From the NCBI GenBank assembly GCA_947630475.1, contig CANRHR010000011.1:1-64000 (forward strand): a DNA stretch of 64,000 nucleotides. The letters run 5' to 3'. The position numbers and the translations under genes were made by a program. Below are positions 5,907 through 18,176 of the stretch, in pieces. The DNA comes from an uncultured Clostridia bacterium. Its GTDB lineage: Bacteria; Bacillota; Clostridia; Lachnospirales; CAG-274. The notes beneath the pieces were generated by a model. The model worked only from the letters and a program-made list of their open reading frames with translations, was not told where the DNA came from and ran no database searches. Within the stretch, counting starts at the first letter, position 1. Each line of letters begins with the position of its first letter.

Positions 5907-7283
5907 ATGAATAAAAAAACAACATTAGTGCGCGTAATTGTTTATTTTGTCATATTTGCAATTTTGTTTTTTATGTTCAATATTGTGTATGACAATATAA
6001 AAACACAAAGATATTTTAAAATTGATTTTGAGAGCAAAAACGCAGGAGAAAAGCCTTTCGAATTGTTTTATACATTTTCCGACACAGAGGAATTTTCACA
6101 AGAAAAATCTTTTTGCGAAATGACCGGAGATAACAAATTTAAAACTGACGCCCAGCGTGAAGTAGATGATCAAATGTATAACAAATTTCGAGTTGATTTG
6201 GGGGATAATGAAAATGCTCAAATAAAGATAAGAAGTATTGAATATTGCTATAACAATAATGTTATGCGCATTTCTGCCGATAGGATCATGGAACTCGAAA
6301 TGAATGATCTTGAAGTTGAAGATGTTAATAAAGATGAGATCACGCTAAAATCCATTGGCAGGGATCCTTATATTGTTGTAAGCAAAATTGTTACTGAAAA
6401 AATACACAAAACAAACTATAAGCTTTCGGTAGCAATTTCTCTAATCGTCCTTGTATTCATTTATAAATTTGTTAAACTGAGAGGAATATATTCGGCACTT
6501 AGAGGGCTTTTTGATGAAAGAAAGCTTATTTTTAGGCTCTCTGTCAACGACTTTAAAACAAGGTTTGCCGGCTCATATTTCGGCATAGTGTGGGCGTATG
6601 TTCAGCCTATTTGCACAATTGTTGTATTTTGGTTTGTTTTTCAAGTGGGATTTAGAAATCCGGATGTTGGAAATGTACAATATATACTGTGGTTTATGAC
6701 AGGACTTATACCTTGGTTTTTCTTTTCCGAGGCATGGTCAAGTGCCACAAACGCCTTTATGGAATATTCATATCTTGTAAAAAAAGTTGTTTTTAAAATA
6801 AATATACTGCCAATAATAAAAATAATATCTGCATTTTTTATACACTTATTTTTCATATTGTTTATGATAGTTGTCTATATGTATTATAGGAGATTTCCTA
6901 ATGTATATTATTTACAGCTTATATATTATATGATCTGTATGGTAGCTCTTGTTGCTGCCTTAAGCTTCATAACTGCTCCGATAATAATATTTTTTAGGGA
7001 TCTAGGAAACATTATAGGCATTGTTCTCCAGTTTGGAATGTGGCTTACGCCCATAATGTGGAATATTGACACAATGGATATATCTGATAAGATTAAGCTT
7101 TTGTTTAAGCTTAATCCCATGTATTACATTGTTCAAGGTTATAGGGACTGTATGATATATAACAGGCTGTTTTATGAACACATTATACTGACTGTCTATT
7201 TTTGGATCGTAGTGATTGTACTCTCGGTTGTTGGCAGCTTTGTTTACAAAAGGCTCAAACTGCATTTTGCCGATGTTCTGTAG
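5907..7283 (+). CDS. wzm: ABC-2 type glycan exporter permease (Wzm/TagG-like) with extra N-terminal domain
   Basis: Membrane subunit of a polysaccharide ABC exporter. The C-terminal part (about residues 190-458) is a complete ABC-2 permease: the family motif FKTRFAGSYFGIVWAYVQP is followed by six hydrophobic segments. The N-terminal 190 residues are additional: a transmembrane helix at about 9-27, a hydrophilic stretch of about 140 residues (probably outside the membrane), and a second helix near 170-187. Usual Wzm proteins are about 260 residues, so this is unusually long. The ATPase partner follows 20 bases downstream. The substrate should be the lipid-linked glycan built by neighbouring transferases. 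Confidence 0.85.
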   Translation: MNKKTTLVRVIVYFVIFAILFFMFNIVYDNIKTQRYFKIDFESKNAGEKPFELFYTFSDTEEFSQEKSFCEMTGDNKFKTDAQREVDDQMYNKFRVDLGDNENAQIKIRSIEYCYNNNVMRISADRIMELEMNDLEVEDVNKDEITLKSIGRDPYIVVSKIVTEKIHKTNYKLSVAISLIVLVFIYKFVKLRGIYSALRGLFDERKLIFRLSVNDFKTRFAGSYFGIVWAYVQPICTIVVFWFVFQVGFRNPDVGNVQYILWFMTGLIPWFFFSEAWSSATNAFMEYSYLVKKVVFKINILPIIKIISAFFIHLFFILFMIVVYMYYRRFPNVYYLQLIYYMICMVALVAALSFITAPIIIFFRDLGNIIGIVLQFGMWLTPIMWNIDTMDISDKIKLLFKLNPMYYIVQGYRDCMIYNRLFYEHIILTVYFWIVVIVLSVVGSFVYKRLKLHFADVL

Positions 7284-7306
7284 CATATCTATAAGGAGAG
7301 GTTTTG

Positions 7307-8569
7307 ATGGATAACGAATATGCGCTTAAAATAAACAATGTAAGCAAGGTCTATAGGCTTTACAGCAAGCCTATAGACCGCCTAAAAGAAAGCCTTAATC
7401 CTATGAAAAAGGTGTATCATAAGCAATATTACGCCCTTAATAATGTAAGCTTTGATATAAAAAAAGGCGAGTGTGTAGGCGTTTTAGGTACAAACGGCGC
7501 AGGAAAATCAACAATATTGAAAATCATAACAGGCGTATTAAACCCCACTGAAGGTAATGTTGAGGTCAACGGCAAAATATCGGCGCTGTTGGAACTGGGC
7601 GCAGGTTTTAATTCCGAGTATACAGGCATCGAAAACATATATTTAAACGGTACTCTCCTTGGTTATACAAGGGAAGAAATTGATTCAAGGGTGAATGACA
7701 TTTTGGAATTTGCCGACATAGGAGATTTTGTGTATCAGCCTGTTAAAACTTATTCAAGCGGTATGTTTGTTCGTCTTGCTTTTGCTGTTGCAATCAATAT
7801 CGATCCAGAAATATTGATTGTTGATGAGGCGCTTTCGGTAGGTGATGTATTCTTTCAGACAAAATGTTATAAAAAATTTGACGACTTCAAAAAAAGTGGA
7901 AAAACTATACTTCTTGTTACTCACAGCCTTTCTTCGGTAAGCAAATACTGTGACAGAGTTATTGTGCTTGACAAAGGAAAAAAAGTTGATGAGGGCGAAA
8001 CATCGGAAATGATAGACTTGTATAAAAAAATACTTGTCAACCAACAAGAAGATGTTACGCAAAAGGAAAACAAAAATGTGCAGACAAATGAAATTGAGCA
8101 ATGGAAAAGCTTATTGTCATTAAATCCCAAAACTGACAGCTATGGCAATGGCAAGGCTGAAATTATAGATTTTGCTGTAATTGATAACAAAAACAGGATA
8201 GGAAGTTACGTTAAAAAAGGTGAATATTTTACAATAAAAATAAAAATAAGATTTAATGAAGAAATTGACGACCCAATAGCCGCATTTACCATTCTCAATC
8301 CACAGGGAACCGACATAACAGGAACAAACACTATGTATGAACATTGTCCAATCGGAAAGGTGAAAAAGGGAGATATAAAGACCGTCAGCTTTAGGCAGAA
8401 ACTTGATATCCAAGGAGGCGAGTATCTGATTAGTTTTGGCTGTACAGGGTTTGAAGAAGGAGAACTTGTGGTATACCATCGATTGTATAGGGCGGTAGAT
8501 ATAAGCATTATATCCGAAAAAAATACAGTTGGATTTTATGATATGAATTCTGATGTAACCATAGACTGA
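7307..8569 (+). CDS. wzt: ABC glycan exporter ATPase with C-terminal carbohydrate-binding domain (Wzt-like)
   Basis: ATPase of the exporter, 420 residues. Walker A GTNGAGKST (about residue 65), signature YSSGMFVRLA, Walker B ILIVDEAL and switch His in VTHSL are all present. Residues about 260-420 form the extra domain found in Wzt proteins that recognise the chain end (GGEYLISFGCTG segment, beta-rich). This domain implies export of a finished, end-modified chain and fits the methyltransferase two genes upstream. ATG 7307 is chosen over the in-frame TTG 7304 because AAGGAGAG ends 7 bases before it. Last gene of the + strand glycan operon. Confidence 0.88.
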   Translation: MDNEYALKINNVSKVYRLYSKPIDRLKESLNPMKKVYHKQYYALNNVSFDIKKGECVGVLGTNGAGKSTILKIITGVLNPTEGNVEVNGKISALLELGAGFNSEYTGIENIYLNGTLLGYTREEIDSRVNDILEFADIGDFVYQPVKTYSSGMFVRLAFAVAINIDPEILIVDEALSVGDVFFQTKCYKKFDDFKKSGKTILLVTHSLSSVSKYCDRVIVLDKGKKVDEGETSEMIDLYKKILVNQQEDVTQKENKNVQTNEIEQWKSLLSLNPKTDSYGNGKAEIIDFAVIDNKNRIGSYVKKGEYFTIKIKIRFNEEIDDPIAAFTILNPQGTDITGTNTMYEHCPIGKVKKGDIKTVSFRQKLDIQGGEYLISFGCTGFEEGELVVYHRLYRAVDISIISEKNTVGFYDMNSDVTID

Positions 8570-8713: not shown

Positions 8714-8742
8714 CTTACAAAATACTAAAATTGATTTATAAT
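8714..8742 (+). promoter_or_regulatory. Putative promoter of the propeller gene
   Basis: CTTACA (8714-8719), 17-base spacer, TATAAT (8737-8742). The -35 box matches the sigma-A consensus in four of six bases and the -10 box is perfect. It would start transcription about 25-30 bases before ATG 8776. Confidence 0.4.
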
Positions 8743-8775
8743 ATTGCAACCAAATTAAAAAAGGAGATATTTACA

Positions 8776-9813
8776 ATGAGCAAAAGCAAATTGATAGGTA
8801 TATGTTCTTTGATGAGCATAACAATAGGTCTTGTAATATTTTCAAATGTTATGTTAAGCAGTACCCCCCCCCATTTATATTTGTATGAATTTAATAATTC
8901 TGAAAATCTTGTTTTTATAAAAAGATTGGGCAACGGTGACGCAAAACTATATGGCAATAACAAAATAGCTACATCTGTCGGTGGAAAGTTTACAATGATC
9001 GATTTTAAACAAAATAAACAGATATGCTATGAAGATGTACCGGTCAATTGGTTGGACATTGATGAAAGCAGCAATTCAATACTATATGCCAATTTTAACA
9101 ATCAGGTAGGCGTACTTACCCTTGATGAAAATATGAACATAACTAAAAATGATGTTATTTTTTCCAATGATGAGCTTGCAATTGACCCATCTATTACTAA
9201 GGTTAACGATACATACTATATAACCCTTACATTTATCAAAGGTAATGTAAACAATTCAGACCCAAATACAGAAAATGGCAGCTATGTCATTAAACTTTTT
9301 ACATCGAAAAATCTTCATGATTTTAACTACATAGGAGATATTGTTTCCGAGCAAAAAAATTTAGAAGATGTAGTATCGCTTTATTCTGATGGAAAATTTT
9401 ATATTTTCTACGAAGAAGAAGAAATAGATAAGGGAAATTCAAAACTTAAAGTAACCTATTCTTCCGATAAGGGTATAAGTTGGTCAAAATCTGTTGTGCT
9501 TTGTGATCTTGATGCAGATAATGAAATAGGCAATGTGATTGAAGATAAAGATGGATTCACTATGTATTTCAGCAGTGATGTTCTGTGCAAAGGAAAATCA
9601 TATAATGGGGCATCTATATTTATGAGCCGTTTTGACAAAAATTTTGTCCCTATTTTTGCAAACAAACAAATTTCATATTATAATGGTGCCCTCCTCTATG
9701 ATGTTATTCCTACTGATGATGGTGGACTTTTCCTTTATACTCAAAAATATCTTACAGAATCAAACCTTGTGCTTTCTCATTTCATTCGATCAAAAGATGA
9801 TTTTATAGATTAA
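8776..9813 (+). CDS. Membrane-anchored/exported sialidase-like beta-propeller protein, possibly phase-variable
   Basis: A 345-residue protein of unknown role. An N-terminal hydrophobic segment (residues about 5-26, basic KSK before it) is a signal peptide or anchor. The rest is beta-rich, with an Asp-box-like motif YSSDKGISWS near residue 235, as in BNR/sialidase or glycosidase five-bladed propeller proteins. I do not see a complete catalytic set, so it could be a binding protein. ATG 8776 has a clear AAGGAGAT site, unlike the in-frame TTG 8731. A run of nine C (8864-8872) lies about codons 30-33, just after the signal. The current length keeps the frame open; loss or gain of one base would truncate the protein to about 30-40 residues. 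Confidence 0.65.
   Translation: MSKSKLIGICSLMSITIGLVIFSNVMLSSTPPHLYLYEFNNSENLVFIKRLGNGDAKLYGNNKIATSVGGKFTMIDFKQNKQICYEDVPVNWLDIDESSNSILYANFNNQVGVLTLDENMNITKNDVIFSNDELAIDPSITKVNDTYYITLTFIKGNVNNSDPNTENGSYVIKLFTSKNLHDFNYIGDIVSEQKNLEDVVSLYSDGKFYIFYEEEEIDKGNSKLKVTYSSDKGISWSKSVVLCDLDADNEIGNVIEDKDGFTMYFSSDVLCKGKSYNGASIFMSRFDKNFVPIFANKQISYYNGALLYDVIPTDDGGLFLYTQKYLTESNLVLSHFIRSKDDFID
8864..8872 (+). repeat. C9 homopolymer in coding sequence
   Basis: Nine consecutive C in the propeller gene immediately after the signal/anchor segment. It encodes Thr-Pro-Pro with CCC codons that are otherwise rare here. It is a candidate contingency tract. Confidence 0.9.
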
Positions 9814-10132: not shown

Positions 10133-11223
10133 CTATAATAACTTTTTCAAAATAGGTATTTTCCTTAAAATTCCCACTATAAAACAGCACAATACAAATA
10201 TATAAAAACAATAAACTAAAGACGTAAGCACTTTATTGATAAGTAAACCATACAATCTATCATAAACTGAAAAATTAATTTGAATATTCATCATTAACTC
10301 ATGAATCAAATATACCCCAAACGTAAGACTACCTAAATACTTAATGATCCTCTGTAAGTAATTGGAAATAGAAAATTTTTCTACAATTTTTTTTACAATC
10401 ACATAAACAAATATGCTATGAACACAGGTAAAATTAGCTAAAAAATACTCTGGATCAGTGTTTATAAATCCTCCTGCACTTTTAGCTATGTACCATTTCA
10501 TCACACAACATATAACTATACCGAGAATACTTCCCCCCCCCCCATTAATACTGCAAGTTTTTTTATATTTTTTATTTCAAGTCTATATTCTAAAAAATAA
10601 CCAAGTAGGGGCCAAAATACAACATTATTCAATAACCAATCAGGTCTTGCATATCCGTTAAGGGAATACTGTCCTTTAAAGACGATGTACTCCACAACAG
10701 GAAGTATACTTTGAAAAAATATAAATAATGCAATCATATATAAAAAATGTGTAGTTTTAAGATTCCTTGCTAAAACTCTCAAAAATGGCAGCGAAATTAA
10801 AAACGCAATATAAGCATATATATACCAATATGAGAAAAAATGACAGTTAGAATATAATGTCACAAAAAAATCTTTAAAATTCAATGACTTAGGAGCCGGT
10901 GTCCAAAAAAGATATATACGAAAGTAATTGATGAATGAAAACGTAACCAACACAATCAACATCCTCAATATTCGTTTTTTAAATATTGAAACAATAGATT
11001 CATCTTTCCCATCCTTAAGAAGCAATACTCCCGAAATAATAAAGAAGAGAGGCACAGCAAACTTGCATATCACTGAAAGCGCCATACATACCCAAAATCC
11101 AAGGCTATTATAGGCGCAATTTACAAAAATTAAAAACCCTCTTTCACCAGTATGATTAAAAATTACAAGCAATATAGCAATTATACGCATAATTTCCAAA
11201 TACAAAATATTTCTTTTTTCCAT
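10133..11223 (-). pseudogene. Acyltransferase 3 family membrane protein, split by a G11 tract (phase-OFF state)
   Basis: Two adjacent frames encode one acyltransferase. The N-terminal part (11223-10516, 235 aa) starts MEKRNILYLEIMRIIAILL and has the family His in FNHTGERG, then many membrane helices. It ends abruptly at GGGEVFSV just after a run of eleven G. The C-terminal part (down to 10133) continues in another frame, and the frame is open back to the G tract: GGG codons, then SILGIVICC, VMKWYIAKSAGG and three further helices. A tract of 12 or 9 G would join them into one protein of about 363 residues, the usual family length. Such enzymes acetylate or otherwise acylate surface sugars. An 11-base tract at the break implies reversible phase variation rather than decay. 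GGAGTGG precedes ATG 11223. Last gene of the heptose operon. Confidence 0.85.
10533..10543 (-). repeat. G11 homopolymer (C11 on + strand) at the acyltransferase frame break
   Basis: Eleven consecutive G on the coding strand, spanning the end of an ATG codon, three GGG codons and the first base of GAA in the upstream frame. Downstream family-like sequence is in the frame reached with 9 or 12 G. Confidence 0.95.
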
Positions 11224-11312: not shown

Positions 11313-11645
11313 TCACAGCGATATAAACACGGCACCTATGGCTATTGCGGCGACACCGAGAATCTTGCAAAGGGTTATTTTTTCGGATAATACAAAATGA
11401 GAAAGAAGCATTGTCCAAATATATGTCATTGAAGTTAAAGGAAGAACGACACTGTAATCCAACACTCTGAGAATATATATGTTAATCAATGCGGCAACAA
11501 GATAAAAAAATCCACCCAAATAAATGAAAGGGCTTTTAATATAGCCGAGCAAGCCCTCCGCCGTTGATGTACGCTTCAGAAAAAGAGATGCTGCAGAGCC
11601 GATCATTGTCATTGCCATAAGGATAAGAAGCTTAAAGGGGGTCAT
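11313..11645 (-). CDS. Small EamA/DMT-type membrane transporter, subunit 2
   Basis: A 110-residue protein with four hydrophobic helices, half the size of normal EamA transporters and like SMR or ArnE/ArnF subunits. Motifs include SVVLPLTSMTYIWTMLLSHF and the typical C-terminal ILGVAAIAIGAVFI. Its ATG (11645) overlaps the stop of the upstream EamA gene (ATGA overlap), with AGGAGGTG as ribosome site, so the two are translationally coupled and probably form a heterodimer. In ArnEF the pair flips undecaprenyl-phosphate-linked sugar. A similar flippase role is inferred from the operon, with a DPM1-like GT2 as its first gene. Confidence 0.7.
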   Translation of the reverse strand: MTPFKLLILMAMTMIGSAASLFLKRTSTAEGLLGYIKSPFIYLGGFFYLVAALINIYILRVLDYSVVLPLTSMTYIWTMLLSHFVLSEKITLCKILGVAAIAIGAVFISL

Positions 11646-11983
11646 TGGCTGTCACCTCCTGCGATTAATATAACCCCAAGGGAGATTACAACAACGCCGA
11701 TCACCTTTGTTACGGTAACGGCTTCTTTAAGGATGACAGCGGCAAGCACTATGCTGAGCACATAATTTAAGCTCAACACCGGCTGGAGAACCGAAAGCCT
11801 GCCGAAACGATATGCAAATATCATCAAAAGCGCCCCAAGGCCATAGCAGAAAAAACCTGCCAAAAGAAAAGCATACCCATACTGAGATGACAGTTTCCAC
11901 AAAAGCTGCCCAACGCAGGCAAAAACAGACGAAATCGCCATTATGCTTATACCTTTTATATTTTTTTTGATCGAGTTGAACAT
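11642..11983 (-). CDS. Small EamA/DMT-type membrane transporter, subunit 1
   Basis: A 113-residue, four-helix protein of the EamA family (LSLNYVLSIVLAAVILKE and VIGVVVISLGVILIAGG are typical). ATG 11983 is chosen over an in-frame TTG 12 bases upstream because GGAGG ends five bases before the ATG. It overlaps the second EamA subunit by 4 bases. The pair resembles the heterodimeric ArnE/ArnF design, where each subunit has four helices. Substrate is unknown; a lipid-linked sugar or a polyprenyl-phosphate carrier is the most likely given the location. Confidence 0.7.
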   Translation of the reverse strand: MFNSIKKNIKGISIMAISSVFACVGQLLWKLSSQYGYAFLLAGFFCYGLGALLMIFAYRFGRLSVLQPVLSLNYVLSIVLAAVILKEAVTVTKVIGVVVISLGVILIAGGDSQ

Positions 11984-12058
11984 ATTTTCCTCCAAGGATC
12001 ATTTGCAAAGCAAAAGTGATATTAGGCTGCCAAAAAGCCTCTGTTTAATCGGTCAAGA

Positions 12059-12712
12059 TCAGCCGAAGAAATTATCTTCAAGCATCATACACCACAAGTG
12101 ATATATCGGCAGATGAAATTCTTGTATTTTATATGTTTCATTTTCCGGAACAATCACAGCCGCATCACAGAGAGGTGCAAGCTTTCCGCCGTCTTTTCCC
12201 GTCAAGCCGATAACTCGCAGTCCCATAGCTTTTGCGGTAACAGCTGCATTAAGTATGTTTTCGCTGTTTCCCGATGTTGTTATCCCAATAAAAACATCGT
12301 TCGGCTTTCCCATGCCAAGCACCTGCTGTGCATAAACGGCATCTGCCGCAGCGTCATTTGTGTAGGCGCTAATCAAAGCTGTACTGCAAGTTAAGGACAC
12401 GGCTGTGAGAGGGCTTTCTAAAATGCCGCTTAAATATTGCCCTCTTTTAGGATCTGTCTGCACAAGCTTTTGCTCAAGGCTTTTATCTATAGGACGTGGA
12501 AGTTTGAAACTTTTCATAAGCTCTCCGACAATATGCTCACTATCAGCGCAAGAACCGCCGTTGCCGGCGATGATAAGTTTGCCGCCATTAAGATAGCAAT
12601 CTTTCATGATAAGGTATGCATTTTCTATACCGTCGGATATTGTTTCAAGCTTATTATATCTTTTAATAAAATCGGCGATAAATTCGCTCTCTTTATTGTT
12701 TAATCTGCCCAT
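12059..12712 (-). CDS. gmhA: D-sedoheptulose-7-phosphate isomerase (GmhA)
   Basis: Should convert sedoheptulose 7-phosphate into D-glycero-D-manno-heptose 7-phosphate, the first step of NDP-heptose synthesis. It has a SIS domain with phosphate-binding GNGGSCADSEHIVGEL (about residues 50-65), TTSGNSENILNA, and the C-terminal QEFHLPIYHLWCMMLED with the Glu and His of the active site. The length (217) is slightly longer than E. coli GmhA. It directly follows the HddC-GmhB fusion with 2 bases between them. With HddA and HddC-GmhB the whole GDP-heptose route is present in one operon. Confidence 0.9.
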   Translation of the reverse strand: MGRLNNKESEFIADFIKRYNKLETISDGIENAYLIMKDCYLNGGKLIIAGNGGSCADSEHIVGELMKSFKLPRPIDKSLEQKLVQTDPKRGQYLSGILESPLTAVSLTCSTALISAYTNDAAADAVYAQQVLGMGKPNDVFIGITTSGNSENILNAAVTAKAMGLRVIGLTGKDGGKLAPLCDAAVIVPENETYKIQEFHLPIYHLWCMMLEDNFFG

Positions 12713-12714
12713 AT

Positions 12715-14022
12715 TTATTTTTCTCCCTTTTTTGATAAAAAATCCGAAATAAAGTCATATAATGTTGCTGCGGAAAAATCTTGCCCTAAGTTTTCATTCG
12801 AGCCTATAAGAGCAGTGCGGCAGCCTGCGGCTTTTCCCGCTTTTATGTCGTTTTCGCCGTCACCTGCCATAACTGAATTTTCAAGGCTGATGTTAAGCTC
12901 CTCTGCGGCTTTAAGCAGCATACCTGCTTTTGGCTTTCTACATTCACATTCAATCTTGTATTCGGGGCGTTCTCCCTCATATCCTTTGTGGGGGTGATGT
13001 GGGCAAAAATATATTCTGTCAAGATATGCTCCCTCAAACCCAAGCAAAGTCTCAAGCTTGTTGTGAATAGCATCAAGCTCGTCAAAAGTGACTTCTCCCC
13101 TTGCGATTACAGGCTGATTTGTGACAACAACTGCAAGATAACCTGAATCATTTATAAGCTTGATCGCTTTTGCCGCATCATCAATAAGTTCAAGGTCATC
13201 TATGTTTGTCAAAAACCCTACATACTTGTTTATTGTGCCATCTCTATCGAGGAATATTGCCTTTTGTGGATTGTCCATATTTTTGGCTGTTATTATCCCC
13301 TCTTCAAGATCTTTGCTAACTGCTGCATACCTTTCGGGAGTGCCCATATCTTTTATGTATTCGGGGCTGTCATAAGCAAACAATTTTCCGTTGCCTGCAA
13401 GGGGTTTGAGTATCTGCCGATCAAGGTCTACCTTCGGAGTGGGCGGCCTTTGGCTGAGAAGAGATGGTGAAAGAATGTGTATACCTGCGTTAACACGGTT
13501 TTTGTAAAATTTCGGTCTTGGCTCCTCTTTTGTAAGCCAATTTGTTACGCAGCAGCCTGCATCGGTTTCTATAAGGGCGCTGTCATAAGGGTGAGCGTTT
13601 GGATGGGTGAGTATAGAAGCAAGCCCTCCTTTTTGGCGATGAAAATCTATAAAGCGCCTAAAACTAATGTTAAAAAGAGAATCTGCATTGAGAAGCAAAA
13701 AATCTTCATCAAGCTTATCTTTTATTTCGTAAAGAGCACCTGCGTTTCCAAGCGGCTCTTTTTCAAAATAATATTCTATATTTACACCGAATGGCTGCCC
13801 TGTGGCGGGAGATATTCCCGAACCGTTGCCGAAATAATCTGTTATAACATTTCCCAAGTGGCTTACGGTAATGATAATATCCCTTATGCCCTGCTGTTTT
13901 AAATTGTTTATCTCACGTTCCAAAACAGGTATATTGCCTATGGATATCATAGGTTTTGGGATATCCGAAGCAATTTTGGATATTCTGCTGCCTTTGCCGC
14001 CTGCCATTATCACAGCTTTCAT
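12715..14022 (-). CDS. hddC-gmhB: Bifunctional heptose-1-phosphate guanylyltransferase / heptose bisphosphate phosphatase (HddC-GmhB fusion)
   Basis: A 435-residue fusion. Residues 1-235 are a nucleotidyltransferase (AVIMAGGKGSRISKIASDIP at the N-terminus, the KP of PKPM, LNADSLFN metal site) that by context transfers GMP to heptose 1-phosphate. Residues about 252-435 are a GmhB-type HAD phosphatase (FLDRDGTINKYVG with the nucleophile and acid Asp; CPHHP and CECRKPK, the GmhB zinc loop; GDGENDIKAG) that removes the 7-phosphate from heptose bisphosphate. GDP as the nucleotide is inferred from HddA and the neighbouring GDP-mannose dehydratase relative. The start codon lies just after the stop of the cupin gene, with GGAGG inside that gene. 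Confidence 0.88.
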   Translation of the reverse strand: MKAVIMAGGKGSRISKIASDIPKPMISIGNIPVLEREINNLKQQGIRDIIITVSHLGNVITDYFGNGSGISPATGQPFGVNIEYYFEKEPLGNAGALYEIKDKLDEDFLLLNADSLFNISFRRFIDFHRQKGGLASILTHPNAHPYDSALIETDAGCCVTNWLTKEEPRPKFYKNRVNAGIHILSPSLLSQRPPTPKVDLDRQILKPLAGNGKLFAYDSPEYIKDMGTPERYAAVSKDLEEGIITAKNMDNPQKAIFLDRDGTINKYVGFLTNIDDLELIDDAAKAIKLINDSGYLAVVVTNQPVIARGEVTFDELDAIHNKLETLLGFEGAYLDRIYFCPHHPHKGYEGERPEYKIECECRKPKAGMLLKAAEELNISLENSVMAGDGENDIKAGKAAGCRTALIGSNENLGQDFSAATLYDFISDFLSKKGEK

Positions 14023-14024
14023 GC

Positions 14025-14405
14025 CTATGCTTCCGCCTCCTCGTTTGGTGTATACATATCCATTGCACCGCCGTCAAGCTCCACCCCAAGGCTATACATA
14101 CTAACAAGCAGGCAGTCTTCCGGATAATCAAAATCATGTATAACACAAGGGGGTATCCTAAAAAAATCCCCTTGTGAAAAACGTTCCCTTTGCTCCTTGC
14201 CGTCTTTGCGTGCGGTCACAACACAACAGCCTTTCACAACATAAAATGCCTCGGTGTTAAGCCTGTGAAAGTGACCGCCTCTGAACACCCCTTTGTGAGA
14301 TGTAATCACGTTGACCTGAGAATATCCCCTGCGAACAAGCTGAGTAAGGTCACCTCTTTCATCGGAAAATGTAAAATCGGGTTTTAATTTTTCTATAAGT
14401 TCCAT
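14025..14405 (-). CDS. Single-domain cupin, putative nucleotide-sugar epimerase/isomerase (WxcM/FdtA-like)
   Basis: A 126-residue cupin. Metal/substrate His residues are in GGHFHRLNTEAFYVVKG and the second cupin motif is near GDFFRIPPCVIHDFDY. The DERGDLTQL opening is typical of sugar 3,4-ketoisomerases and RmlC-related cupins. It sits between a GDP-sugar 4,6-dehydratase and the guanylyltransferase fusion, so it likely epimerises or isomerises the GDP-4-keto-6-deoxy-heptose made by the dehydratase. Length is closer to FdtA/WxcM single domains than to RmlC (about 180). The exact reaction cannot be decided from sequence. Confidence 0.65.
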   Translation of the reverse strand: MELIEKLKPDFTFSDERGDLTQLVRRGYSQVNVITSHKGVFRGGHFHRLNTEAFYVVKGCCVVTARKDGKEQRERFSQGDFFRIPPCVIHDFDYPEDCLLVSMYSLGVELDGGAMDMYTPNEEAEA

Positions 14406-14420
14406 AAGACTAATCCCCCG

Positions 14421-15452
14421 TTATCTTGTCAAAAAGCTGCCTTTTTTAACTCTTTCTCTCCAGTAATTAAGAAGATCTTCCATTGTTTGCTCATAGGAAA
14501 TAACGGGTTTCCAGCCTGTATGCTGCATAAACTTGCGGCAGTCAGGCACTTGCAGATCGGCATCTATGGGACGCAGTCTGCTTGGATCTGTTACTATCTT
14601 GATCTCATCTTTTTTGGTCGACATAGAAATAAGTGTATTTAAAGTGTCGGCAACTTCACAAGTATACGTACCACCAATATTATAGTATTCTCCCGCTACG
14701 GGGTTGATTGTTACAAGCATATAATATGCCCTCACGGCGTCACGCACATCGGCATATGTTCTGAGAGATTTAAGGTTTCCCACCTTTACCTCGGGAGGGA
14801 TAAGCCCTGCTTCAATCATCGCTATTTGCTTTGCAAAGGTTGATTCATGGAATACATCGCCTCTTCTTGGCCCTGTGTGGGTGAACATACGGGTTGTCAT
14901 AACTGTCATTGAGTAAGCTTCTGCATAATACCTGCCAAGAAGATCCGTACCAACCTTTGATATGGCATAAGGTGATGCCGGATGGAATGAACATTCTTCG
15001 TGTATTCCGGTTTCGGGCTTTTTATCAGGAGGTATTTTACCAAACACCTCGGAAGAAGCGCACACATGAATCACAGGAGAATAAGAACTGTCATTTTCTT
15101 TTTCAAGCCTTATCGCCTCAAGCAGACGACAAGTGCCAAGGATATTTGTGTTGAGAGTGTCTATCGGCGCAGTAAAGCTTGTGAGGGGATAACTTTGAGC
15201 AGCCAAGTGAAAAACGTAATCGGGCTTTATGCTCTGTATAACTTTTATAAGGGATATTTCATCGTTAAGATCCGCATATTCAAAGAAAAGCCTGTCGCCA
15301 CTGTTAACCCTTTCAAGAAGATGCTCCACATTATCCAACGGGCTTCTCCACCTGCATACACCGTATATATCCCAATCGGTGTTTTCAAGCAGAAAATCAC
15401 AAAGGTGCGAACCTACCATCCCTGTTATTCCTGTTATCAATGCTTTTTTCAT
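14421..15452 (-). CDS. GDP-mannose 4,6-dehydratase family enzyme (likely acts on GDP-heptose)
   Basis: A 343-residue extended SDR. NAD-binding motif ITGITGMVGSHLCDFLL is at the N-terminus, FHLAAQSYPLTSF is the GMD-type loop, SSEVFGKIP contributes the catalytic Ser/Glu, YAISKVGTDLL has the catalytic Tyr-Lys, and THTGPRRGDVF is the family GDP-sugar signature. It should convert a GDP-sugar into its 4-keto-6-deoxy form. The operon makes GDP-D-glycero-D-manno-heptose rather than GDP-mannose, so a GDP-heptose 4,6-dehydratase, like DmhA or the Campylobacter heptose dehydratases, is the better guess. GDP-mannose remains possible. Downstream: cupin; upstream: HddA. Confidence 0.8.
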   Translation of the reverse strand: MKKALITGITGMVGSHLCDFLLENTDWDIYGVCRWRSPLDNVEHLLERVNSGDRLFFEYADLNDEISLIKVIQSIKPDYVFHLAAQSYPLTSFTAPIDTLNTNILGTCRLLEAIRLEKENDSSYSPVIHVCASSEVFGKIPPDKKPETGIHEECSFHPASPYAISKVGTDLLGRYYAEAYSMTVMTTRMFTHTGPRRGDVFHESTFAKQIAMIEAGLIPPEVKVGNLKSLRTYADVRDAVRAYYMLVTINPVAGEYYNIGGTYTCEVADTLNTLISMSTKKDEIKIVTDPSRLRPIDADLQVPDCRKFMQHTGWKPVISYEQTMEDLLNYWRERVKKGSFLTR

Positions 15453-16471
15453 TTTTTTACCTCCATATCATTTGCCTCTGACGGCTCATAATTTTCCGCT
15501 TGATAGTAAATGACTTTTGTTCCCATATTTTCAAATTCAAACGGAATCAAAAGATAATCTTTAAGCGCTTTCCTTACGGCAGATCGATTTTCCTTTTTGA
15601 CATAAAACAGTAAAAAACCGCCTCCACCTGCGCCAAGCAGCTTTCCGCCAATCGCACCTGCATCTTTCGCCTTTTGATAAATCATATCGATGGAATCATT
15701 GGATATTTTGCTTGTTATGCTGCGCTTAAGCTGCCAAGTGTAATCAAGAAGTTTGCCAAATTCGTCCAATGATGAATTTGAAACAAGTATCTTGTGGGCT
15801 TCGTCAACAAGCTGGTGAATCTCTTTAAGCTGAGACAGCCTGTCTTTTATGCTTTGCTCCTGCTTTTTTGCAATTTGGGAGGAAATACGAGAAAATCCCG
15901 TAAAAAACATCATAAGGTTATCGTTGAGCATTTGCTTGCGCTCGTGAGAGATAACGATAGGGCTGACGTTGTAGCCATCTGCATTAAAATCAATCCTGTT
16001 GAGCCCCCCCCACGCCGCTGCAATCTGATCTTGTATTCCGCCGCTTTCCGCACAGAGCACACGCTCAAGATATATTGCATCATCGGCAAGCTTTCTTTTG
16101 TCTACATATTTGCCCTTGAGAGCATAAAAAGCATTAAGCATACCCACGGCAAACGAACTGCTTGTGCCAAGCCCCGAACGTGCAGGAAGATCGGCTTCAT
16201 AATCTATCCTAAGTTCGTGCATATCCAAATAAAGCATAGCGTTTCTCACAGCAGGATGTTCTATTTCGTCTATTGTTTTAACTCTTTCAACTTTGCTATA
16301 AGTGATCTGATTTGTGTACTCAAAAAAACGTGGCAGATGTCCAACCGACACCATACAATATTTATCAAATGTTGTGGAGATAACACTTCCGCCGTGCTCT
16401 TTGTAATAGCCGGGGTAATCTGTGCCGCCGCCGAAAAATGACATACGAAACGGTGTTTGTGTAATTATCAT
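15449..16471 (-). CDS. hddA: D-glycero-D-manno-heptose 7-phosphate 1-kinase (HddA, GHMP family)
   Basis: A 340-residue GHMP kinase. Motif 1 is at the N-terminus (TPFRMSFFGGGTDYPGYY), the ATP loop is ADLPARSGLGTSSSFAVG (about residues 94-111), and motif 3 is GAIGGKLLGAGGGGFLLFY. It should phosphorylate C1 of heptose 7-phosphate before GmhB and HddC act. The conserved QDQIAAAWGGLNRID segment is encoded with TGG GGG GGG CTC, making a G8 run (16014-16021). Its 3' end overlaps the dehydratase start by 4 bases. A ribosome site (GGAGGAAAAA) precedes the ATG. Confidence 0.9.
   Translation of the reverse strand: MIITQTPFRMSFFGGGTDYPGYYKEHGGSVISTTFDKYCMVSVGHLPRFFEYTNQITYSKVERVKTIDEIEHPAVRNAMLYLDMHELRIDYEADLPARSGLGTSSSFAVGMLNAFYALKGKYVDKRKLADDAIYLERVLCAESGGIQDQIAAAWGGLNRIDFNADGYNVSPIVISHERKQMLNDNLMMFFTGFSRISSQIAKKQEQSIKDRLSQLKEIHQLVDEAHKILVSNSSLDEFGKLLDYTWQLKRSITSKISNDSIDMIYQKAKDAGAIGGKLLGAGGGGFLLFYVKKENRSAVRKALKDYLLIPFEFENMGTKVIYYQAENYEPSEANDMEVKK
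16014..16021 (-). repeat. G8 homopolymer (C8 on + strand) within hddA
   Basis: Eight G on the coding strand at the conserved WGG motif of HddA. The frame is currently intact. GGG codons are uncommon in this window, where GGC and GGA dominate, so the tract may be maintained. Confidence 0.9.
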
Positions 16472-16483
16472 TATTTTTCCTCC

Positions 16484-17368
16484 TTACAAGGTTAGCTTTA
16501 TTTGAGAAATGCCCAAAAGCTGTTTTATCTTTGTGTTATCCATAAGTGTAGATTTTGCCCTTTGGGCATCAAATATTCCTTCGCAGCTGTCTGTGTATAT
16601 GGGCACAACCAGTTCCCTGTCAACTCCCAGCTTGTCCGCTATCATAAGCCCCACATCATACTTTGACAAATCGTCATCGCCGCAGATGTTAAGTATCTTT
16701 GGCGCATCGCTGCCAAATTTCTCTATAACATCAACAAGCAGCCCTGCTGCTGTGTCAAAGCTCAAAGAGGAACGGTATGAATCGGCAAACATTTCCATTT
16801 TTTCGCCCTTTTTGAGGGTTTCCGCTATTTTGTCATAAAAATGCTTTTTAACTGGTGAAACAGACGGTGAAATAAGGAAAGGATATCTGACAACATTTCC
16901 GCCATAGCCTGTGATGATGCTTTCGGCAGTCATCTTTTGCCGTCCATATGTGTTGACAGGTGAAAGCTTATCCTCTTCCGAAAAATGGAAACCATTTATG
17001 CTGTTGCCGTACACGCTGTCGGTTGACGGATAAAAAATGCAGCTTACGTTTTCAAGCTTGTTTATAAGCCGTGACAGGCTTGTGATGTTTATATCCCATG
17101 CAAGACGCGGATCTTTCTCCACAAGATCGGGGTTGTGATATGCTGCCGTTATGATAAGCTTTATGTTGTCTATGCCAATCAAAGCTTGATAGAGCTTATC
17201 TGTCATTTCGGAACTTGAGATATCATAGCTTAGCCATTTTATGCGTGAGTCCTGTGTTACGGTTTCAATGTTTCTTGCGGTTGCGATGATGTCGTCATCG
17301 GTTTTTTCAATTATGTTTTTGAGAATGTATGAACCTAAAAATCCATTTGCGCCTATTACAAGATACAT
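16484..17368 (-). CDS. NAD(P)-dependent sugar reductase (RmlD/WcaG-like SDR)
   Basis: A 294-residue short-chain dehydrogenase of the extended type. The nucleotide loop is VIGANGFLGSYILKN at residues 3-17; catalytic residues are in STDSVYGN (Ser/Thr) and YGRQKMTAE (Tyr-Lys). It resembles RmlD reductases. In this operon it most likely reduces the C4 keto group of the GDP-4-keto-6-deoxy-heptose produced by the dehydratase and cupin, giving the final GDP-6-deoxy-heptose. It is the second gene of the operon, 4 bases after the GT2 gene and 12 before hddA. Confidence 0.7.
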   Translation of the reverse strand: MYLVIGANGFLGSYILKNIIEKTDDDIIATARNIETVTQDSRIKWLSYDISSSEMTDKLYQALIGIDNIKLIITAAYHNPDLVEKDPRLAWDINITSLSRLINKLENVSCIFYPSTDSVYGNSINGFHFSEEDKLSPVNTYGRQKMTAESIITGYGGNVVRYPFLISPSVSPVKKHFYDKIAETLKKGEKMEMFADSYRSSLSFDTAAGLLVDVIEKFGSDAPKILNICGDDDLSKYDVGLMIADKLGVDRELVVPIYTDSCEGIFDAQRAKSTLMDNTKIKQLLGISQIKLTL

Positions 17369-17372
17369 TATA

Positions 17373-18176
17373 TCATTTCTCCTTGAATTTATATTTGCTT
17401 TCGGGGTCGTAGTGGTTCAATATGGTGTGATAGAGTATGGAGAGCTGGTAAATATTGCCTTTTATGCCACCAATCTTACTTGGCACCTCGTTTGGAGGAT
17501 ATGCCCTTGTTACAGGTACTTCACAGGTTTTAAAACCAAGCCTGCATGCTCTGACAGGAAGATAATATATAAGCTCATAGCCCCAAAAAACATCACGAAA
17601 GGGAAGCACTCTTTCATCGATCATAAATTTTTTGGAATATGCCCTAAAGCCGTTGGTGGTGTCTGTAAGATGTTTTCTTGCACAAAATGTCATAACCGGC
17701 TCATTGATAAGCTTAAGTGCAAGCTGCCTTATAAGGGGAGTGTTTATGCCTTTTCCGCCTTTTATATATCGTGAACCTTGAATGTAGTCATAGCCTTCGT
17801 CAAGGCGAGAGATAAAAAGATCGATCGCCGATGTACCGTCTTTGTTGTTGCCGTCGACTGTTATAAAGCCGTCATATCCTTGTTCCATTGCCCAAGCGTA
17901 ACCCATACGAAGGTCGGTGGAATATCTGCCCTTTCCTTTCCTGACGAGTAAAGCACGGTGTCCCGATGATCTTAAAAATTCAGGGTCGGACGAGCCATCT
18001 GTTGAACCTGCATCACAAATAATAACATCGACCTTTTCAAAAAGTCCCTCTTTTTTCATTTGCTCTGTTTGCTTTAAATATCTCTCTCCCTCATTAAATA
18101 AAGGAATAAGAAGACAATACCTGTTCCTTTTTTCAAAAAATACTGTTTCTTCAAAATTGGGGATTGCTTTGTTCAT
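17373..18176 (-). CDS. GT2 family glycosyltransferase (DPM1-like)
   Basis: A 267-residue cytoplasmic or membrane-associated GT-A enzyme without transmembrane helices. The N-terminal fold YCLLIPLFNEGERYL leads to VDVIICDAGSTDGS, and the nucleotide-sugar metal site is ITVDGNNKDG. It resembles dolichol/polyprenyl-phosphate sugar transferases. It may load the heptose onto a polyprenyl phosphate that the EamA pair then flips; that is inference. CAAGGAGAG precedes ATG 18176. First gene of the operon, under the promoter at 18269-18297. Confidence 0.75.
   Translation of the reverse strand: MNKAIPNFEETVFFEKRNRYCLLIPLFNEGERYLKQTEQMKKEGLFEKVDVIICDAGSTDGSSDPEFLRSSGHRALLVRKGKGRYSTDLRMGYAWAMEQGYDGFITVDGNNKDGTSAIDLFISRLDEGYDYIQGSRYIKGGKGINTPLIRQLALKLINEPVMTFCARKHLTDTTNGFRAYSKKFMIDERVLPFRDVFWGYELIYYLPVRACRLGFKTCEVPVTRAYPPNEVPSKIGGIKGNIYQLSILYHTILNHYDPESKYKFKEK

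Follow-up and report, generated by a model that had tools for sequence, protein, structure and literature searches.

A run of eleven guanines splits an acyltransferase gene in a surface-glycan operon of an uncultured Clostridia bacterium: a probable slipped-strand switch

The window analysed here, a stretch of 64,000 nucleotides with a GC content of 34.5%, carries an acyltransferase gene whose reading frame changes at a run of eleven guanines. The question is whether this run marks a gene that was lost, a gene that was miscounted or a gene that is switched. The preliminary description of this DNA proposed the last, and the parts of the gene are as follows.

10516..11223, minus strand: AT3 acyltransferase, N-terminal part (PF01757 positions 2-209, R13-X10-H24, RILR)
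10533..10543, minus strand: G11 homopolymer, proposed slippage switch (run count, simulated lengths)
10133..10532, minus strand: AT3 acyltransferase, C-terminal part, in the other frame (about 136 open codons, PF01757 positions 249-324)

The gene is read on the minus strand from 11223 to 10133, and the run is exactly 11 G, which appears as C11 on the plus strand. The N-terminal half was described as stopping just past the run, and it does: the ORF that starts with ATG at 11223 ends at 10516, encoding 235 aa that finish in LMGGGEVFSV and a stop. The second frame is open through the run, as was also claimed, with 147 codons from stop to stop, 136 of them past the run, and an end at 10133; the chance of this frame staying open for 136 codons is about 3e-4. 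In simulated run lengths, the predicted normal-length protein was obtained with 9 G (362 aa) or 12 G (363 aa), and again with 15 G (364 aa), while all the other lengths from 7 to 14 gave truncation at 234-247 aa. A change of one unit in the run thus toggles an otherwise intact frame. The 123-aa ORF from the GTG at 10504 was rejected as a separate gene, since its start lies inside the continuing frame, and it represents a reading fragment.

The proposed identity of the product was confirmed with PF01757 (Acyl_transf_3), which is matched by both halves. The N-terminal part covers positions 2-209 (E 2e-21) and alone scores 76.6 bits, the curated cut-off being 31 bits; the C-terminal part covers positions 249-324 (E 4e-5), so a single domain is split by the run. 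The translation of the N-terminal part includes R13-X10-H24 and RILR, corresponding to R-X10-H and RXXR, the N-terminal motifs of AT3 enzymes. A predicted transmembrane segment begins at the run, and the truncated 235-aa form is without the last helices. The corresponding positions in homologues are taken by ordinary residues, small or hydrophobic, and no G run is present there. A two-piece enzyme made by internal restart appears less likely, as the ATG and GTG codons near the run in the C-terminal frame have no close Shine-Dalgarno sequence by eye. Consensus scans for promoters and terminators in the surroundings of the gene matched no more often than in shuffled sequences.

The neighbourhood of the gene indicates its possible substrate.

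11313..11995, minus strand: two small EamA-type (ArnE/ArnF-sized) membrane proteins, directly upstream of the acyltransferase gene and in the same orientation
12059..18176, minus strand: upstream genes of the glycan operon, from GmhA-like to GT2
8731..9813, plus strand: secreted GH43/beta-propeller-like protein, with its signal-peptide end encoded by C9; in frame (ON)
8864..8872, plus strand: C9 homopolymer at the signal-peptide end of the 8731..9813 gene, second candidate switch in the window
5907..8569, plus strand: ABC-2 permease and Wzt-type ATPase (glycan export), given as context

The acyltransferase gene closes a series of genes on one strand that runs from 18176 to 10133, and for this reason its frameshift should not silence the other genes; the 8731..9813 gene converges on it from the other side. 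The genes in 12059..18176 encode a GmhA-like SIS isomerase, an HddC-like NTP transferase fused to a HAD phosphatase, a cupin, a GDP-mannose-4,6-dehydratase-like protein, a GHMP (HddA-like) kinase, an RmlD-like protein and a GT2. This set is that of a GDP-D-glycero-D-manno-heptose type pathway, which serves S-layer glycans and capsules. The operon suggests that the acylated molecule is a GDP-heptose-type surface glycan, probably of the S-layer or cell-wall type.

OafA/Oac-type AT3 proteins (PF01757) are O-acyltransferases of surface polysaccharides. The enzyme of the window resembles them in its family, in its N-terminal R-X10-H and RXXR and in its multi-helix membrane topology, but differs by the lack of an SGNH extension and has no close homologue (best 30%). 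Against the contigs of GTDB genomes only a 28% match was found, in a planctomycete MAG, with no near homologue; IMG/VR viral contigs and a PDB sequence search gave no match. Homologues within the family, at 25-30% identity, have no G run of at least 7, and the run is therefore lineage-specific.

Runs of this kind are far more frequent in the host genome (2.18 Mb, 99.6% complete) than composition predicts. The 64-kb window has 7 G8 windows, with 0.34 expected. Genome-wide, 13 G/C runs of at least 9 (lengths 9-11) were counted, and about 1.4 are expected from first-order (dinucleotide) statistics. The spectrum of short runs, counted on 185 kb only, falls from 258 of length 4 to 48 of length 5, 5 of length 6 and none of length 7, while the whole genome holds 1, 6, 5 and 2 runs of lengths 8, 9, 10 and 11. 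A/T runs of at least 9 are depleted about sevenfold (about 71 observed, about 508 expected). An enriched, bimodal distribution of long G runs together with depleted A/T runs fits neither a general tolerance of homopolymers nor the typical homopolymer sequencing error. GGG makes up only 8.2% of the glycine codons, so the G11 run is not the by-product of a glycine stretch. It is not a chance run.

These counts also bear on a miscount in the assembly, by which the true run would be 9 or 12 and the gene intact and invariable. Short-read assemblers often err on G runs longer than 9, and in some relatives (G033) the G runs at the ends of contigs are probably artefacts. The run studied here, however, is interior to a 69-kb contig. 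Errors of this kind do not produce an excess of G runs together with a shortage of A/T runs. A tract of 9 or 12 G would also remain hypermutable, so that the assembled state would change and the switch would not. We give a miscount a very small probability.

The 13 runs are distributed as follows.

MaoC gene, in an FkbH/ACP/MBOAT/AlgX-like acylation cluster: G10, ON
DltD/AlgX-like protein: G10, ON
DltD-like paralogue, 37% identical to the G10 copy, with the run at a different position: G9, OFF
Secreted beta-propeller-like protein: C9 at 8864, ON
799-aa membrane protein: C9, ON
Three secreted Cu_amine_oxidN1 (stalk-domain) proteins: C10, C9 and G9, all OFF
Acyltransferase of the window: G11, OFF as assembled
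Four intergenic runs: upstream of fliE, an SLH protein, a stalk protein and a kinase

Nine runs are coding (4 ON and 5 OFF as assembled) and four are intergenic, and the coding ones lie nearly all in surface-related genes, for surface-glycan acylation, secreted-protein signal peptides and a membrane protein. In its sequence the genome thereby shows the pattern of a multi-locus phasome, for which at least ten simple-sequence-repeat loci with a bias to surface or modification genes are required, and the loci are candidate switches. Glycan acylation is affected at three separate loci of this one genome. In all three Cu_amine_oxidN1 proteins the run is within the signal peptide, which is in a different frame from the body. 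The label DltD/AlgX-like comes from operon context and appearance, both proteins being without a Pfam match. They belong to a Dlt-like operon (L025:1769-8760, G000:C1) that also encodes an AMP ligase fused to a nitroreductase, an ACP and an MBOAT protein; with one member ON and the other OFF by their G runs, the pair is a possible alternative-subunit switch.

The four intergenic runs (L027:7366-7375 in G000:C3, L026:7270-7280, L028:6993-7001 and L029:7060-7069) are found in predicted RNA hairpins. The run between flgC and fliE is paired over nearly its whole length with an arm rich in C (z -5.4, 0 of 200 shuffles), and the hairpin upstream of the SLH protein has z -2.5. Such hairpins could be attenuators tuned by run length. 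An origin of the intergenic runs from a repeat element was rejected, as the fliE hairpin is single copy and has no Rfam match.

Comparison of paralogues showed that runs are kept while their length changes. Two tandem stalk-protein genes with 43% protein identity (83/195) share the site of the run, which is C10 in one and C9 in the other, with identical immediate flanks. At this divergence neutral runs would have eroded, which argues for selection on the run. The same pair bears on transcriptional slippage or ribosomal frameshifting, by which a genetically fixed gene would yield a small and steady share of complete enzyme. RNA polymerase can stutter on long homopolymers, and work on this is cited in PMC9187656; some full-length protein, in a small amount, could be contributed by transcriptional slippage. 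No stimulatory stem-loop is seen at G11 (fold z 0.4), and the different run lengths in the DNA of identically flanked paralogues indicate that length changes do occur at the DNA level. As the explanation of the locus, it is the least probable of the alternatives weighed here.

In genome G002, from another genus of the family, four tandem heparinase-II/III-like genes carry G9, G10, G9 and G10 at the same GGGYFDR site, two of them ON and two OFF. A stretch of 8 kb in this genome (L075:5751-13726, G002:C31) has six G-run genes, among them near-identical tandem heparinase-II/III-like genes that are in mixed ON and OFF states.

The recurrence extends to the acyltransferases themselves. Among 26 PF01757 genes in nine family genomes, four have runs of at least 9, at four different positions: the gene of the window (G000, OFF), two in G003 (one OFF, one ON) and one in G005 (OFF). 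Three AT3 genes in two other genera have thus acquired runs independently, and two of them are frameshifted. At a density of 63 runs per about 21 Mb, about 0.1 run-bearing genes would be expected, a figure that serves as a guide and not as a P value, given that the nine genomes were picked partly for having runs.

These observations weigh on a fixed pseudogene, in which a chance or expanded run broke the gene once and decay has followed. The assembled frame is indeed broken, and a single allele is known, the scans of family genomes, GTDB and IMG/VR having returned no second one. Against this, the C-terminal half is open for 136 codons and still matches PF01757 249-324, the genome has 13 such runs concentrated in surface genes, and runs survive the divergence of paralogues and arise independently in other AT3 genes. 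A pseudogene is the least unlikely of the alternatives, but is still improbable.

The phase variation by slippage that the preliminary description put forward is supported by the enrichment of G runs, the undecayed C-terminal half, the independent recurrence in AT3 genes and the retention of runs with changed length in paralogues. We consider it quite probable, judging from the sequence, that the locus is phase-variable by slipped-strand mispairing, that the step it controls is the acylation of a heptose-type surface glycan, and that it belongs to a multi-locus phasome. The gene would encode an integral-membrane AT3 O-acyltransferase at the end of a heptose-type surface-glycan operon, with its reading frame set by the G run. 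In living cells, replication slippage would add or remove guanines; a length divisible by three would yield the complete multi-helix enzyme (ON), and any other length, including the assembled G11, a truncated and presumably inactive protein without the last helices (OFF). OFF describes the assembly, whose run length may be off by one, and not necessarily most cells. Cells would then differ stochastically and reversibly in the acyl group on the glycan, and the acyltransferase gene would belong to a phasome that comprises 13 G runs across the genome.

Loss of mismatch repair as the cause of instability was rejected, because MutS and MutL are intact in this genome. For the same reason switching may be slower than in Campylobacter and Helicobacter. 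Neisseria shows phase variation despite proficient mismatch repair, and Campylobacter jejuni is without the canonical mismatch-repair system. The latter has poly-G contingency genes such as Cj1295 (PMC3068675), and a phasome has been described for its genus (PMC6321876). The two share an AT-rich genome, a large number of loci and the placing of poly-G tracts in genes that modify glycans; C. jejuni is, however, a Gram-negative epsilonproteobacterium, whereas the clostridial genome has MutS and MutL and a glycan probably of the S-layer or cell-wall type.

The nearest proven Gram-positive case is that of the pilins of Bifidobacterium breve UCC2003, in which slippage in the sortase-pilus G-tracts of bbr_0113 and bbr_1889 was proven experimentally to restore the frame, and lengths vary in vivo (PMC9187656). 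This is also a Gram-positive gut anaerobe, and its G run splits a 5' signal-peptide part from the body (PMC9187656). It differs in that pilin genes at two loci of a member of the Actinobacteria are concerned, while the clostridial genome has an acyltransferase and 13 runs, known here from sequence alone.

The mechanism of poly-G slippage is known, and the setting is new. A literature search of partial coverage found no description of a multi-locus poly-G phasome in Clostridia. Nearly all documented cases of repeat-based phase variation at multiple loci come from pathogens and host-restricted Gram-negatives, and a 2025 review treats its apparent restriction to pathogens as an open question, maybe due to database bias (PMC11868660). 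A genome of clostridial type, judged by its gene content, with 13 poly-G loci, and more in sister genera, makes this question testable from existing metagenome reads. If the switch is real, phages, diet and host immunity would meet several surface types within a single strain of this anaerobe.

A broader reading, which we hold as tentative and rather doubtful, is that the whole clostridial-type family may use poly-G slippage for surface diversification. Its targets would include glycan acylation, stalk-domain signal-peptide switches, and heparinase-like and DNA-methyltransferase genes. There might also be a non-coding variant, in which the G run supplies one arm of a hairpin in the RNA ahead of fliE and of the genes for an S-layer protein, a stalk protein and a kinase, and its length tunes transcription or translation.

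Other runs were noted in related genomes. In G033 (C23 and C87), and perhaps also in G027 and G010, long G runs are very numerous close to the ends of contigs; those of G033 are probably assembly artefacts, and contig-end runs are a warning for poly-G surveys. Phage-type C5-cytosine DNA methyltransferases have G8-G10 runs (L111:3001-3009, L149:2156, L176:3463 and L180:2685) at or close to a shared linker; some of these runs keep the frame and that of L111 breaks it, and phage methylation is possibly phase-variable through them. An HsdS-like type I restriction specificity gene (L081:3001-3009, G002:C22) is apparently split by C9 into two frames and is a candidate phasevarion.
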